Origin: a virus
Strand: one strand, 5' to 3'
DNA: 61,715 nt
IMG/VR virus record: IMGVR_UViG_3300029989_000022
Location: 1 to 61,715 of that record
Part shown: piece after piece, positions 1,671 through 39,743 of the stretch
Layout of the letters: each line of letters begins with the position of its first letter
How positions within the stretch are numbered: position 1 is the first letter of the stretch
Notes under the pieces: model-generated
The model's database searches: none
What the model was told of the DNA's origin: nothing
Seen by the model: the letters and a program-made list of their open reading frames with translations, nothing else
Program-made: the position numbers and the translations under genes

Positions 1671-1838
1671 ATGCTCAGAGGCGTGCTGGCACGGTTTTCC
1701 TTCGGGCAACTGATGGAACTGCATCGGATGGTATTGCAGTGCATTGCGAGTCTCTGTGAGCGCAACTGCGGGGCGTGTGCGCATTGCGGCCAGTGCCCGG
1801 CAAAACGCGGTGAAGAACCTGCGAAAAAGACCCCATGA
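1671..1838 (+). CDS. Cys-rich 55-aa protein in lysis operon
   Basis: ATG at 1671. Its stop overlaps the endolysin start (ATGA at 1835-1838), the same coupling seen elsewhere in this operon, which supports it as a gene. The N-terminal half is amphipathic. The C-terminal half carries a dense Cys cluster, CERNCGACAHCGQC, with CxxC pairs that could bind zinc or form disulfides. Function unknown. Similar tiny Cys-rich genes sit between holin and endolysin genes in many phages, but I cannot name a family. Confidence 0.6.
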   Translation: MLRGVLARFSFGQLMELHRMVLQCIASLCERNCGACAHCGQCPAKRGEEPAKKTP

Positions 1839-2371
1839 GCGACATCGACGAAAGCAAGCGGAGGTTCTCCGCCTTCATGCCGTTCATCCTCCAATGGGAA
1901 TGCGTTTACGCAAAGGGCCACTATGGCGACCTTCAGTTCGTGGTTTCCGAGAACAACGACAATGACCCAGGTGGCTTGACGAAATTCGGCATCGACGCGG
2001 CGAACCACAAGGGCGTGGACATCGCGCGATTGACGCTTGAAAGCGCCACGGCGATTTACTGGCACGAGTGGATTCAGACCCGCTCGGGCACGTTCCCTGC
2101 GCCGATGGGTGAGGTGTTTTTTAATGCGTGTGTGAACGCCGGAGGTCCCCGCGCGTGTGCCCTTCTGCATGATCCCGCCACCCACAACACCGCCTCCGCG
2201 TTTCTGGCTGCTCAAGATCGTTGGTATCGTGAGTTGGTGGTAAATCGGCGTGCATCCCGTGCGGCGCATGCCGGGGACAAGGCATGGCTCAAAAAGCATC
2301 CAGACCTCTCCGAATTTCTCAAAGGATGGCTCAACCGAACCGCAGCTTTGCGGCGGTTCTTGCGCATTTGA
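1835..2371 (+). CDS. Endolysin, GH108-type N-acetylmuramidase
   Basis: 178 aa, a usual length for glycoside hydrolase family 108 phage lysozymes, which cut the glycan strand of peptidoglycan. Visible marks are the N-terminal catalytic Glu region (FILQWE, Glu22), then NDNDPGGLTKFGID at about residues 41-54, the family's DPGG.T.xGI signature. A C-terminal part contains FFNACVNAGG and RWYRELV, as in the peptidoglycan-binding half. There is no signal peptide, so it needs a holin, which fits the two-helix protein upstream. Last gene of the lysis operon. Confidence 0.88.
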   Translation: MSDIDESKRRFSAFMPFILQWECVYAKGHYGDLQFVVSENNDNDPGGLTKFGIDAANHKGVDIARLTLESATAIYWHEWIQTRSGTFPAPMGEVFFNACVNAGGPRACALLHDPATHNTASAFLAAQDRWYRELVVNRRASRAAHAGDKAWLKKHPDLSEFLKGWLNRTAALRRFLRI

Positions 2372-2380
2372 TCCCGGGTG

Positions 2381-2545
2381 TTTAGCACAAAAAATTAGCA
2401 CATTCCTCTGTAATTCGCTATAGTGTAAAACTACCGCTCTCCTTCTGGTTGGGGTCTGTGTCTCTGTAAATATTGGGCTGTATGGGCTTGCATTGGGATG
2501 GTTTTTAGCACAGTTTGTGTGTGTTTAGCACATGAATTTAGCACA
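2381..2545 (+). repeat. Five direct TTTAGCACA repeats, candidate integrase arm sites
   Basis: TTTAGCACA occurs at 2381-2389, 2504-2512, 2524-2532 and 2537-2545, and ATTAGCACA at 2394-2402, all in the same orientation. They form two clusters about 100 bp apart, on both sides of a segment resembling a tRNA anticodon arm (2423-2440) and upstream of the integrase gene. Short same-sense repeats in two clusters around a core are the layout of arm-type binding sites in lambda-like attP. Function is inferred. Confidence 0.6.
2423..2440 (+). other. Candidate attP core: partial copy of tRNA-Val anticodon arm
   Basis: GTGTAAAAC at 2423-2431 and CCGCTCT at 2434-2440 match 2687-2695 and 2698-2704 inside the tRNA-Val gene, that is 16 of 18 positions with only the two middle bases different. 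The matching part of the tRNA is the anticodon loop, one anticodon-stem strand and part of the D arm, a usual crossover site for tyrosine integrases. It lies between the two clusters of TTTAGCACA repeats. Confidence 0.5.
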
Positions 2546-2596
2546 AAATCCGCTTGGTCTTCTTGAGCGTTTTCCGCTTTGCATTCCCGGCACGCC

Positions 2597-2616
2597 CATC
2601 CTTACGCGTAAGGATG
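2597..2616. repeat. Dispersed palindrome, copy 1 (CGCG centre)
   Basis: CATCCTTACGCGTAAGGATG is a perfect 20-bp palindrome with a centre two bases longer than the usual ATCCTTACGTAAGGAT form. It is intergenic, between the candidate att region and the tRNA-Val gene. Confidence 0.8.
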
Positions 2617-2648
2617 GAAAAGGCGTTGGTGAGTTGATGGGAAGGAAA

Positions 2649-2723
2649 TGGTGCGCGGTGCAGGGTTCGAACCTGCGGCCCGCTGTGTGTAAAACAGCCG
2701 CTCTACCACTGAGCTAACCGCGC
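2649..2723 (-). tRNA. tRNA-Val (anticodon UAC)
   Basis: Full cloverleaf read on the minus strand: acceptor GCGCGGT/ACCGCGC, D arm GCTC/GAGC, anticodon stem GCTGT/ACAGC with loop TTTACAC (anticodon TAC, reads GUA/GUN Val), T arm GCAGG/CCTGC with loop TTCGAAC, discriminator A and an encoded CCA (2649-2651). It lies 50 bp from the integrase start and is a probable integration target, or a copy that the phage carries. Confidence 0.93.
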
Positions 2724-2773: not shown

Positions 2774-3808
2774 ATGTCTAAAATTAAGGGATTGTTTCGG
2801 CGAGGGAAGATTTGGTGGCTGCGCTATTCCGTAGATGGCGTGCAGCGACGAGAGTCTCTGGATACGGAATTGGAGCAGCTCGCGGCGGTGAAGGCGATAG
2901 CGATTCTCCATCGGGCTCCTATTGAGGCTTCCGGGGAATGGGAACGCGAGTTGGATGCGTATTTGCTGGACGCCCAGGCGCGGAGAAAGTTGAGCTGGCG
3001 GTTTGCGCGGCCCCGGCGATATGTGCTGATGCGGTTCGCCAGGGAGTATAATATTTCCAAGGTGGCGGACGTATCAGTTTCCGTCGTGGAGAAATGGCTT
3101 CGGGATTTGGGTGTGGCGAGCCCAGAACGGCGGGCGATCAAGCCGGGCACCATTGAGGGCTACCATTTCCATCTGCGCGCGTTTTGCACCTGGTTGGTGA
3201 AGAAAAATAAACTCCGGGAGAATGTGGCAGCCGCATATGATTTGGGTGAGGTGGAGCGGTCTGTGCGTAAGAACTTCCTTTCCAAGGATACGGTCGCGCG
3301 TTTGATTGCCAATGCGCCGAGTGAGGAGATGCGTTTCATCCTCTACTGCGGCTTGCACGCCGGGATGCGACGGTTGGAGGTGGTTGAGGCCCGGCCCGAA
3401 TGGTTCCGGCTCGGTGAGAACGGCCGTCGTGGATGTGTGGTGATCGGGCAGACCGAGACGTTTTCCCCAAAGGATCGCGATGAGCGAACCGTGCCGTTGT
3501 CTGCTGAATTTGAAGCGTTTCTGCGGCGCTACGGAATGCCTTCTCCCTTTATGATTCGACCGAAGAAAACGCAGGGAAAGGCGATTTACCGGTACGATTT
3601 CCGCAAGGCATGGGACGCTTACATGAAGGACCAGGAGGTAAGATGCACGTTTCATGACACCCGCCGGACATTCGTGAGCCTCAAGTTGATCGAGGATTCC
3701 TCGCTCATCTTCAAGCTCGCCAAGTGGACGGGGGACGACGTGAAGGTGTTGCAGACCCATTACGCTCACTTGCTGGCGGACGACGAGGATATTGAGGTGG
3801 GGCTGTGA
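2774..3808 (+). CDS. int: Tyrosine recombinase / phage integrase
   Basis: 344 aa from ATG 2774 (an in-frame start 21 bp upstream is also possible). The N-terminal residues 1-40 look like a compact arm-binding or AP2-like domain (GKIWWLRYSVDG), residues about 60-150 are a SAM-like core-binding domain, and the rest is catalytic. Visible catalytic residues are Arg199 (GLHAGMRRLE), His294 and Arg297 (FHDTRRTF) and nucleophile Tyr330 (THYAHL). It should catalyse site-specific integration and excision. It sits immediately beside tRNA-Val and the repeat-rich candidate attP, the usual arrangement of a temperate phage. Confidence 0.93.
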   Translation: MSKIKGLFRRGKIWWLRYSVDGVQRRESLDTELEQLAAVKAIAILHRAPIEASGEWERELDAYLLDAQARRKLSWRFARPRRYVLMRFAREYNISKVADVSVSVVEKWLRDLGVASPERRAIKPGTIEGYHFHLRAFCTWLVKKNKLRENVAAAYDLGEVERSVRKNFLSKDTVARLIANAPSEEMRFILYCGLHAGMRRLEVVEARPEWFRLGENGRRGCVVIGQTETFSPKDRDERTVPLSAEFEAFLRRYGMPSPFMIRPKKTQGKAIYRYDFRKAWDAYMKDQEVRCTFHDTRRTFVSLKLIEDSSLIFKLAKWTGDDVKVLQTHYAHLLADDEDIEVGL

Positions 3809-9657: not shown

Positions 9658-9947
9658 ATACCCCGCGTTATGAACATCCAACGCATGGCGCGGCGAGTTC
9701 AGGTCCGCGAGCCGATGCAGTGAATCACCCGGAGCATTACACAGCCGGAAATATTGAGTGCATCGCCGCTATCCGTGAAGCTCTTGGACTGGATGGGTTC
9801 CTGGCTTTCTGCCGTGGGAACGTGTTGAAGTATTCTTGGCGTGCCGACAAAAAGGGCAAGTGCTCGGAAGACATGGCGAAAGCGGCGTGGTATGCGACCA
9901 AGGCGAGCGAAGCGGCAAAGGAAATGGAGGTGCCTCGTGAGCGCTAA
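9654..9947 (+). CDS. DUF3310 (SaV-like) protein
   Basis: 97 aa, GTG start with GGAGG at the right distance. The core DAVNHPEHYTAGNIECIAAI and FCRGNVLKYSWRADKKG is the signature of DUF3310, a very common small phage protein of unknown function sometimes described as a nucleotide kinase-like SaV protein. The first 20 residues are variable. It overlaps the following gene by 11 bp. Confidence 0.85.
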   Translation: MNTPRYEHPTHGAASSGPRADAVNHPEHYTAGNIECIAAIREALGLDGFLAFCRGNVLKYSWRADKKGKCSEDMAKAAWYATKASEAAKEMEVPRER

Positions 9948-10947
9948 TACCCACATCGACTGGTGCGACATGACCTTTAACCCGTGGATCGGCTGCACCA
10001 AGGTATCTCCGGGGTGTGCGAACTGTTACGCAGAAAATGATACCTTTGCGCGGGTGCAGCGCTCGAAGGGCAGGGAGCTTTGGGGTAAGGGATGCGCCAG
10101 ACATCGCACCAGCGCGGCGAACTGGAGGCAACCGTTGCGGTGGAATAATGCTCCGGGATTTTGCAATACCTGCGGATGTTTTGTTGCTCCTAGTGTTTGC
10201 GCCCACGGAATAGAACATTTTGAAATTGGTAGGCGTCCCCGTGTCTTCTGTGGCTCTCTCTGCGACGTGTTTGATGACGAGGTGCCGATTGAGTGGCTCG
10301 CAGATTTGCTGTTGCTAATCTATGACACACCGAATCTGGATTGGCTTCTTTTAACCAAAAGGCCAGAAAATTGGGATCAGCGCATCGAGTCCGCGTATCG
10401 CCTTCAAAACAAAAAGAATTACGCTCTAATGGTGTGGTTGGAAGATTGGATTGAAGGCAAACATCCCACCAATATCTGGATAGGAACCACGGTGGAGAAT
10501 CAGGAGATGGCCGACAAGCGCATCCCTGAGCTGTGCAAGATTCATGCGGCGGTCCGCTTTCTGAGTTGCGAACCGCTATTGGGGACAGTGGACATTGAAC
10601 AATGGATTGATCCGATTGACCTTGGCTATGTTGGAAAATCATTCCTGGACTGGGTCATCTGTGGGGGTGAGAGCGGATCGAATGCACGACCAATGCACCC
10701 GGATTGGGCGCGAAGTCTGCGGGATCAGTGCCAAGAAGCTGGCGTGCCATTCTTCTTCAAGCAGTGGGGGGAGTGGGAGCCTTTCGGAACGTACGATGGA
10801 CGCCAGATTCTTCCCTGGGGCGAATACGAGGTTCCTACGGAATCCAGCGAGGGGTTTGGCTTCCTGAAAAAGGGAAAAAAGGCGGCGGGGCGTTTGCTGG
10901 ATGGAGTCATTCACAATGCGTTTCCAAAAATGGGAGGGGCACAATGA
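9937..10947 (+). CDS. Phage Gp37/Gp68 family protein (DUF5131)
   Basis: 336 aa. Start taken at GTG 9937, which has GGAGG at 9926-9930 and begins with the family's conserved TxIxWxDxTFNPWxGC (here ANTHIDWCDMTFNPWIGCTKVSPGCANCYAE). Other conserved family pieces are RVFCGSLCDVFD, DWLLLTKRPENW, WIGTTVENQEMADKRIPEL, RFLSCEPLLG, WVICGGESGSNARPMHPDW and FFFKQWGEW. The Cys pattern near the N-terminus (CxxxxxxxCxxC) could hold a metal or Fe-S cluster. The family is common in phages. Biochemical role not established to my knowledge. Confidence 0.9.
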   Translation: MSANTHIDWCDMTFNPWIGCTKVSPGCANCYAENDTFARVQRSKGRELWGKGCARHRTSAANWRQPLRWNNAPGFCNTCGCFVAPSVCAHGIEHFEIGRRPRVFCGSLCDVFDDEVPIEWLADLLLLIYDTPNLDWLLLTKRPENWDQRIESAYRLQNKKNYALMVWLEDWIEGKHPTNIWIGTTVENQEMADKRIPELCKIHAAVRFLSCEPLLGTVDIEQWIDPIDLGYVGKSFLDWVICGGESGSNARPMHPDWARSLRDQCQEAGVPFFFKQWGEWEPFGTYDGRQILPWGEYEVPTESSEGFGFLKKGKKAAGRLLDGVIHNAFPKMGGAQ

Positions 10948-20109: not shown

Positions 20110-22031
20110 ATCCGAATTGGTTGGTGAAACTCCGGGAGTTCTTCACGGAGATCATGCGCCCCGTTCCTAAACTCCTTGTCTGGCAGTGGATGGAAGCCAA
20201 CATCTACCTATCGGAACGGGCTTCGGCGGTGCCTGGGAAGATGAGTTTCTCATTGATACCCTACGCCCGGGAACCTGTGCAGTGCTATGCCGACAAGTCG
20301 GTCACGGATATGACCTGCTGTTTCGGGACGCAGACAGCCAAAACAACGATTGTGATGGGGGGAACTGCTTATCGGATATGCAATGACCCCGTTCCAACGC
20401 TATGGGTGATGGCGACAAAGGATATGGCGCAGTCGTTTAGCAAGACGCGCTGGATTCCGATGGTTGACGATTGTCCCCCGCTGGCCGCGCAAAAACCGGA
20501 GAATCGGCACATGTTCGGGTTCACCGAGCAGCATTACGACAAGGTGACACTCAATTTTGTCGGGTCGAATTCCGCCTCGGAGTTGGCGAGTCGCCCCGCA
20601 GGGCTCCTGAACATGGACGAGACGGACAAGTTCAAGTTGGATACCGATCGAGAGGCGGGCGCGCTACAGAACGCCGAGGAGCGCACCAAGACCTTTCCAT
20701 TTCCATTCCGCGTCAAGACGAGTACGCCCACCACCGTTCATGGACAGATTTGGGGCGAATTCAAACTGGGAGACCAGCGTTATTGGAATATGCCGTGTCC
20801 CCACTGCTCAACGCCAGATGATAGCGTAGCGGGATTAAGCTACCACGAACTGTCTGAGGCGCAAAAAGCCAATGTGGCAACGTGGATCACCTTCAAATTT
20901 TCCACTCATTCCGAAGAGCACGGCGACTGCGGTGTGCGATGGTGGCGCGAAAAAGAGGATGAATCGAAGACCGATGGGGAGTGGGATATGTCGAAGGTCC
21001 GCCGCAACGCCTTTTACAAATGCCAGCGTTGCGGAGGGGAAATCCACGATGAACAGAAGCCGCCAATGCTGCGCGCTGGAGTGTGGATACCGACCAATTT
21101 CAACGCGGAACCGTGCCGCAGGAGCTACCATCTCAACTCTATCTATTCATTGCTTGGACCCGAATGCACGTTCTCTGCCATCGCGGTGAAATGGCTGCAA
21201 ACCAAGGGTTCGATCACCAAACGCCACGCCTTCATCAATTCCACCCTGGCCGAAACATGGGATGACGAGAAGGCGGTGGACGACAATCCGATTTTCAAGG
21301 AGGGCTATGGTCAGGAGGATTTGCCGACCGATCGCACCACGATCATGGCGGTGGACTTGCAGCACGATCACTTCTGGGTCGTGGTGCGCAGCTTTGCGCC
21401 GCCAGTCGCCTCGGGGACCGGCGAGAGCTGGCTTCTCTTTGCCGGTAAGGTCGAAGGCGGCGTGGAAGAACTCGCTGCGATTCAGAAGGAATATGGCGTA
21501 GAGTCAAAAAACGTGGTGCTCGACATCGCCCATTTCACCAATCAGGCATGCAAATGGATTGTGGCACACGACTGGCGCGGATTATGGGGCTCCAACAAAA
21601 ACGGCTTCTTCCATGTTTTGGAGACAGGTCAACGGGTGATCAAAGACTATTCGTCGGTACATTACCGGGATCCGCATCTCGGCACGGCCTTCGCGGCAGA
21701 TGGGACGCCTCGGGCGATGTTTGTCTATTGGTCGAACGAGAAGTTCTATGATTTGCTGGCGATCCTGCGCTACAGTGAGCCCACGGTATTCCACATCCAT
21801 TCCGATGTTCCTCCAGAGTATCAGCGCCACTTGAACTCGGCCATCAAGACCACGGAGAAGAGCTTCCGCACGGGCCGCGTGAAGTATGTATGGAAGCAAT
21901 TGCGCAAGGAGGACCATTTGCGCGACTGCGAATGCATGGCGCTAGTTCGCGCGATGCAACTCGGCCTGGTTCCTACCCCTGACATGACCCCGGTGGGACA
22001 GCAACGGAGTCTGGACTTGAATGAGGGCTAG
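20106..22031 (+). CDS. terL: Terminase large subunit (lambda gpA family)
   Basis: 641 aa, ATG overlapping the terS stop. The N-terminal ATPase has a gpA-type variant Walker A, FGTQTAKTT (residues 73-81), followed by LWVMATKDMAQSFSKTRW and a Walker B region, GLLNMDETDKF. A zinc-binding part shows CPHCS...CQRCGG. The C-terminal nuclease begins IMAVDLQHDHFWVVVRSF, with the first catalytic Asp. It translocates DNA into the prohead and cuts concatemers. Unusually, the rest of the head genes start 17 kb downstream, beyond the leftward block and a transposon. Confidence 0.93.
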   Translation: MNPNWLVKLREFFTEIMRPVPKLLVWQWMEANIYLSERASAVPGKMSFSLIPYAREPVQCYADKSVTDMTCCFGTQTAKTTIVMGGTAYRICNDPVPTLWVMATKDMAQSFSKTRWIPMVDDCPPLAAQKPENRHMFGFTEQHYDKVTLNFVGSNSASELASRPAGLLNMDETDKFKLDTDREAGALQNAEERTKTFPFPFRVKTSTPTTVHGQIWGEFKLGDQRYWNMPCPHCSTPDDSVAGLSYHELSEAQKANVATWITFKFSTHSEEHGDCGVRWWREKEDESKTDGEWDMSKVRRNAFYKCQRCGGEIHDEQKPPMLRAGVWIPTNFNAEPCRRSYHLNSIYSLLGPECTFSAIAVKWLQTKGSITKRHAFINSTLAETWDDEKAVDDNPIFKEGYGQEDLPTDRTTIMAVDLQHDHFWVVVRSFAPPVASGTGESWLLFAGKVEGGVEELAAIQKEYGVESKNVVLDIAHFTNQACKWIVAHDWRGLWGSNKNGFFHVLETGQRVIKDYSSVHYRDPHLGTAFAADGTPRAMFVYWSNEKFYDLLAILRYSEPTVFHIHSDVPPEYQRHLNSAIKTTEKSFRTGRVKYVWKQLRKEDHLRDCECMALVRAMQLGLVPTPDMTPVGQQRSLDLNEG

Positions 22032-22263
22032 TCTCCTTATGTAAGGATGCACCAGATTGGATTTCATTTTCAAGCCGTGGAGGTTGCCGTGAAATTCCAA
22101 AGGAAAAAGCTCCTAGATCAAGAAAGTCGCAGGAATCATCACTCAGTTTTTCGATTCTGACTCCGTGCGATCTGAGGAGATTATTGAGCTTTGCAATTAC
22201 ACCATCTGGAGACTTGCTCCAGTCGCGCCATTCCCTCCAATCAATCTGAACCGTGCTGATCAT
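21973..22263 (-). CDS. Small hypothetical protein, end of leftward block
   Basis: 96 aa. The N-terminal MISTVQIDWREWRDWSKSPDGVIAKLNNLLRSHGVRIEKLSDDSCDFLDLG looks like a folded small domain. The last part runs through palindrome copy 4 and overlaps the 3' end of the large terminase gene on the other strand, so the C-terminus may be a recent extension. Function unknown. Confidence 0.45.
   Translation of the reverse strand: MISTVQIDWREWRDWSKSPDGVIAKLNNLLRSHGVRIEKLSDDSCDFLDLGAFSFGISRQPPRLENEIQSGASLHKETSPHSSPDSVAVPPGSCQG
22034..22047. repeat. Dispersed palindrome, copy 4
   Basis: TCCTTATGTAAGGA, a 14-bp form with a TG centre, starting 3 bp after the large terminase stop, where rightward and leftward genes converge. 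Confidence 0.75.
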
Positions 22264-39668: not shown

Positions 39669-39743
39669 GTCGGCGTGGAGCAGTGGCAGCTCGCCTGGCT
39701 CATAACCAGGAGGTCGCGGGTTCGAGTCCCGCCGCCGCAACCA
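39669..39743 (+). tRNA. tRNA-Met (CAU), initiator-like
   Basis: D arm GAGC/GCTC, anticodon stem CCTGG/CCAGG with loop CTCATAA (anticodon CAT), T arm GCGGG/CCCGC with loop TTCGAGT, encoded CCA at 39741-39743. Acceptor pairs 3-7 are good (CGGCG with CGCCG), but pairs 1-72 (G with A) and 2-71 (U with C) do not match. A 1-72 mismatch and A11-U24 are initiator features. The anticodon stem has only two of the three G-C pairs expected. It lies between two head genes. Confidence 0.85.

Follow-up and report, generated by a model that had tools for sequence, protein, structure and literature searches.

To clarify why an attachment-site-like region beside a phage integrase gene should hold both a partial and a complete copy of the same tRNA, we analyzed the 61,715-base window that makes up the whole of IMG/VR virus record IMGVR_UViG_3300029989_000022 (positions 1 to 61,715), in which no terminal repeat was found. 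From left to right, the region comprises lysis genes with an endolysin, two arm sites, a core, three arm sites, a tRNA-Val(TAC) gene, and an integrase gene. The endolysin (glycosyl hydrolase 108; 1835 to 2371, plus strand; Pfam PF05838, E = 6.2e-8) directly adjoins the arm sites, indicating that the DNA to their left is of phage rather than host origin. The left arm-site cluster, or P arm, occupies positions 2381 to 2402 (plus strand), with TTTAGCACA at 2381 and ATTAGCACA at 2394, and the right cluster, or P' arm, occupies positions 2504 to 2545 (plus strand), with TTTAGCACA at 2504, 2524, and 2537. Between them lies the core (2423 to 2447, minus strand), which corresponds to part of the anticodon arm and the 3' side of the D arm of tRNA-Val(TAC). 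Beyond the P' arm are a complete tRNA-Val(TAC) gene with an encoded CCA (2649 to 2723, minus strand; detected by ARAGORN), which we propose to be a replacement tRNA, and a tyrosine integrase gene (2774 to 3808, plus strand; open reading frame open from 2753). Elsewhere, the window contains a strong DUF5131 match at 9841 to 10947 (E = 4.6e-89).

The repeat statistics and the core sequence both mark this region as a phage attachment site. The window has exactly five copies of the motif TTAGCACA (2382, 2395, 2505, 2525, and 2538), always on the plus strand and within a span of 164 bp, against 0.75 copies expected, and five copies were reached in none of 100 shuffles. These copies form two clusters, one on each side of the core, and are absent elsewhere in the record. 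The initial annotation had described five repeats in two flanking clusters, which holds with a minor correction: the full TTTAGCACA is present in four of the five copies (2381, 2504, 2524, and 2537), while the fifth, at 2394 to 2402, reads ATTAGCACA. The same annotation had noted a partial anticodon-arm copy, and direct comparison agreed, with 16 of 18 bases identical between 2423 to 2440 and the tRNA anticodon arm at 2687 to 2704, and 20 of 25 when the comparison was extended to 2447; when the inter-arm segment was shuffled 2,000 times with dinucleotides preserved, an equal match to tRNA-Val appeared once. Uninterrupted identity extends over at most 9 bp, GTTTTACAC (2423 to 2431, read on the minus strand). 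Thus, positions 2381 to 2545 constitute an intact temperate-phage attP, located near the gene of a lambda-type tyrosine integrase. Two further elements were observed here. A perfect 22-bp palindrome without a T run, CCATCCTTACGCGTAAGGATGG, lies between the P' arm and the tRNA (2596 to 2617) and is possibly an operator or excisionase site. In addition, a sigma-70-like promoter match (TTAGCA, 18 nt, TATAGT) at 2395 to 2424 is composed of an arm site and the core edge; it could be remodelled by integration or could reflect chance.

The initial annotation had also placed an integrase beside the repeats, and this gene proved to be genuine: it matches the PHROG integrase family (E = 5.7e-29), an alignment of the window integrase with eleven relatives shows no variation at the active-site R, K, HxxR, or Y, and the best PDB match of its AlphaFold model (mean pLDDT, 83) is 1z1b, the full-length lambda Int. 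At its N terminus, the model has three strands and one helix arranged as in an arm-binding domain; the protein is accordingly predicted to be a lambda-like three-domain enzyme with N-terminal arm-binding, core-binding, and catalytic domains. An Asp (TGD) stands at the active-site His/Trp position, as it does in close relatives with LGD. A search by protein pattern returned no close integrase relatives in IMG/VR or GTDB contigs, and no match to the window integrase was found in the phage relatives identified by major capsid protein (L358 to L360; 39% identity).

Relatives of the system were recovered through its arm sites. Virus and bacterial contigs were scanned for TTTAGCACA pairs, using no protein information, and homologous integrases were found beside the pairs. 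As a control, close pairs of the reversed motif ACACGATT were scanned, and in 15 of 41 virus contigs (L361 to L401) these lay near integrases that are unrelated, so that pairing alone is not specific to TTAGCACA, and close direct repeats commonly seem to serve one integrase or another as arm sites. A search for such repeats may offer a general route to arm sites. Given this enrichment, our claim was narrowed to the shared N-terminal domain. A 46-residue N-terminal profile matched 27 of the 43 integrases beside TTAGCACA pairs, several of which are truncated and which include seeds or near-seeds of the profile (L202, L163, and L111 and the near-copies L004 and L125), versus 0 of 15 beside the control motif. 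The predicted N-terminal arm-binding domain thus sets the TTAGCACA integrases apart, and the window integrase shares it. A second integrase group beside TTAGCACA pairs (L005, L006, L316, L324, L330, and L347) was observed to have a different N-terminus (SPYWIARMRVW...RSTKLPHKTTPKRAA), and its arm sites lie upstream of the gene or overlap its start. A literature search by arm motif gave unrelated work only, among the matches listed, and TAGCACA arm repeats were not found in the stretches read of the annotated phages D3, AP3, and Aaphi23, which have distant integrases.

The closest integrases (37 to 40% identity) belong to Verrucomicrobiota prophages of Prosthecobacter, Luteolibacter, Akkermansiaceae, and others, and these have the same TTTAGCACA pairs with a whole tRNA-Pro adjoining, while relatives at about 33% identity are adjoined by tRNA-Val(GAC) or tRNA-Val(CAC). 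Among the Verrucomicrobiota relatives, the pair normally lies directly before the integrase gene, with a complete Pro(GGG), Val(GAC), or Val(CAC) tRNA just beyond. Where no motif copy could be recognised, integrases of the group adjoin Pro, Thr, Ala, or His tRNA genes. Among Nitrospira, several elements with TTTAGCACA pairs were observed (L137, L152, L156, L162, L164, L168, L234, L236, and L244); there the pairs overlap the integrase 3' end, and a Lys, Arg, Thr, or Glu tRNA gene lies alongside. The motif is thus present in many relatives, and its absence from their att regions, which had been named beforehand as evidence against the proposal, was not what we observed.

Displaced tRNA fragments in the prophages locate the crossover. 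Nucleotides 32 to 77 of tRNA-Pro are displaced in G005, G006, and G124, with 98 to 100% identity; G005 and G006 carry TTTAGCACA arms, and the TAGCACA motif was not found in the stretch of G124 that was read. Moreover, in G282, an intact tRNA-Thr(CGT) is separated by 36.4 kb, including the integrase gene, from displaced nucleotides 1 to 42 of the same tRNA, in the orientation expected for the window, with the tRNA 5' half toward the integrase; this integrase is without the TAGCACA motif. Since the tRNA-Pro and tRNA-Thr fragments both end at the anticodon loop, the crossover is placed there. The initial annotation had suggested recombination at an anticodon loop, and these fragments lend the suggestion support by analogy; related prophages at an unrelated locus would have spoken against it, and the prophages lie in tRNA genes. 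One contig (L276; G045:C46, about 21,860 to 22,150) was seen to have the 5' half of tRNA-Val(CAC) fused to phage DNA beside an integrase of the group, with no 3' half; it is a possible tRNA-replacing lysogen, in a gapped record whose far end is missing.

How the split tRNA fares differs within the group. In most relatives, a tRNA half in attP allows the host gene to be rebuilt. In five viruses (L111, L315, L018, L343, and L268), about half a tRNA lies between the arm clusters, and in none of them was a complete tRNA detected beside attP. Two other viruses, L097 and L344, resemble the window in having an anticodon-arm-like core between the arm clusters and a complete tRNA-Thr(CGT) next to attP. 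The exact cores measure 9 bp in the window, 13 bp in L097, and 7 bp in L344, the last being all that this core has in common with its own tRNA, and each short core is adjoined by a complete tRNA of the same anticodon, namely, Val(TAC) in the window and Thr(CGT) in L097 and L344. A complete tRNA beside attP was accordingly present in 3 of 3 short-core viruses versus 0 of 5 half-tRNA viruses (exact p of about 0.02, where L097 had drawn attention through its tRNA), a split that is suggestive of a link between a short core and an adjoining complete tRNA. In addition, the distance from the last arm site to the integrase start codon is -1 to 100 bp in 11 relatives versus 228 bp in the window, where the gap is occupied by tRNA-Val(TAC).

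On the basis of integrase similarity, which is the sole ground for the assignment, the host phylum is probably Verrucomicrobiota; placement by tRNA-Val alone gave mostly matches to tRNA-Val(CAC) and tRNA-Val(GAC). Because neither a lysogen nor a close relative of the window phage was found in the contigs searched, attB was inferred. The same 9-bp core, GTTTTACAC, is present in tRNA-Val(TAC) of eight Verrucomicrobiota genomes, a length within the range of about 8 to 17 bp known from mycobacteriophages; exact-core identity is 9 bp in Akkermansia-like genomes and 7 bp in Verrucomicrobiaceae (three Prosthecobacter-like). The anticodon-arm pattern of tRNA-Val(TAC) matched once in each of 11 candidate-host genomes, many of which are MAGs, with a pattern that would miss diverged copies. 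When integration of the window attP into the host tRNA-Val(TAC) was simulated with two genes and three cut points each, no tRNA was obtained at either junction, while the same procedure applied to the attP of L315 and tRNA-Pro, as a positive control, rebuilt tRNA-Pro.

Taken together, these results make tRNA-dependent lysogeny with tRNA-Val(TAC) the likely explanation of the locus, and we regard the window phage as a candidate system of this kind. The N-terminal domain of the integrase would bind the TTTAGCACA arm sites, and the core of about 9 bp would recombine with the host's tRNA-Val(TAC) gene at its anticodon loop. Integration would split this gene, and since the tRNA fragment in attP has decayed, neither side would regain a complete copy. 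GTA codons depend on a TAC anticodon, and a host deprived of its sole tRNA-Val(TAC) gene should therefore die if the phage brought no substitute. The phage tRNA-Val(TAC) encoded at 2649 to 2723, in the spacer that separates the P' arm from the integrase gene, would then replace the lost host tRNA, and the infected cell would survive thanks to this spare. We infer tRNA-Val(TAC) as the target, the expression of the phage tRNA, and its requirement; a search for a sigma-70-type promoter for the phage gene found none. A phage-borne replacement tRNA was one of the readings offered initially, and it fits the uninterrupted attP, the simulated junctions without a tRNA, and the similar arrangement in two other viruses.

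Other readings were weighed against this one. The phage might integrate at an anticodon loop and carry tRNA-Val merely as a passenger that serves lytic translation or counters host anticodon nucleases and is unneeded for lysogeny. Such roles are frequent for phage tRNAs (PMC10865867), and the window has a second tRNA gene, tRNA-Met(CAT), far from attP (39669 to 39743). However, the anticodon of the phage tRNA-Val(TAC) is exactly that of the attP core, the gene is placed in the spacer between att and int, and the pairing is repeated in two other viruses with another isotype. In the phage, GTA is also the least used Val codon (9.3% of its Val codons), an indication that this tRNA does not chiefly serve codon supply, and we consider the passenger reading unlikely.

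The initial annotation had also raised a tandem or remnant integration, with the full tRNA and the partial copy representing an attL next to attP or a decayed attR. Although the two tRNA-like copies, the core and the full gene, lie 264 bp apart in the same direction, a single core is flanked without interruption by both arm clusters, phage lysis genes lie to the left, all five motifs fall within attP with no second cluster at the full tRNA, and other viruses have cores flanked by this motif in attPs that look unintegrated. Because attP is intact and uninterrupted, we rejected this reading, which now seems barely credible. Finally, the likeness of the core to tRNA-Val might be accidental, or merely the core preferred by the integrase, with attB elsewhere; the exact stretch is indeed just 9 bp, and no junction of the window phage was found. 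Against this stand the rarity of an equal match among the shuffles and the use of tRNA anticodon loops by integrases of the same group, together with the cognate tRNA adjoining the core, so that such a coincidence is quite improbable.

To our knowledge, tRNA-replacing integration has so far been demonstrated experimentally in actinobacterial viruses only. Lysogeny dependent on a phage tRNA is known from actinobacteriophages, among them mycobacteriophage Fionnbharth (Guerrero-Bustamante and Hatfull 2024, PMC10865867). In these systems, the sequence common to attP and attB spans about 10 bp, integration leaves no rebuilt tRNA, and lysogens need the phage tRNA. For mycobacteriophages, whose cores measure 8 to 17 bp, the mechanism is established, and the same work names Lj965 of Lactobacillus johnsonii as a possible nonactinobacterial case and urges a search elsewhere (PMC10865867); prophages of Sinorhizobium meliloti bring an isoacceptor tRNA, and a similar replacement has been discussed for them (PMC11476347). 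Compared with Fionnbharth-type systems, the window differs in its Val(TAC) isotype, its distant integrase, its arm motif TTTAGCACA, its probable Verrucomicrobiota host, and a tRNA that separates attP from int and is encoded on the other strand, and it is known here from sequence alone. The Verrucomicrobiota prophages (for example, L202, L163, and L270) share with it the arm motif, a homologous integrase, and the crossover at the anticodon loop, but in them the attP tRNA half rebuilds the gene, there is no separate tRNA, and the arm sites lie about 0 to 100 bp from int. Like the window, the S. meliloti prophages and Lj965 are found outside Actinobacteria and bring a tRNA that may replace an interrupted one, but with other integrases and other isotypes. 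Lambda likewise has a three-domain integrase and arm sites flanking the core, whereas its attB is not a tRNA gene and it carries no tRNA. Thus, the window is probably a further case of tRNA-dependent lysogeny, outside Actinobacteria.

A broader reading, to which we give slightly less than even chances, is that one integrase group, defined by TTTAGCACA arm sites and its N-terminal domain, repeatedly switches between rebuilding and replacing the tRNA that it splits. The group considered here spans Verrucomicrobiota, Nitrospirota, and unassigned viruses, and the two states are represented by half a tRNA in attP versus a whole tRNA beside it. The replacing state may have arisen when a cognate tRNA was gained beside attP, after which the tRNA half in attP was free to decay. 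The window phage, L097, and L344 are sequence candidates for tRNA-dependent lysogeny beyond the actinobacteriophages, and as a single arm-site motif led to all three, further cases can be searched for in this way. In addition, they provide a specific explanation for why a phage would have a solitary tRNA. If the switching reading is true, tRNA-dependent lysogeny would be a recurring state of a widespread integration system and not a peculiarity of actinobacteriophages.
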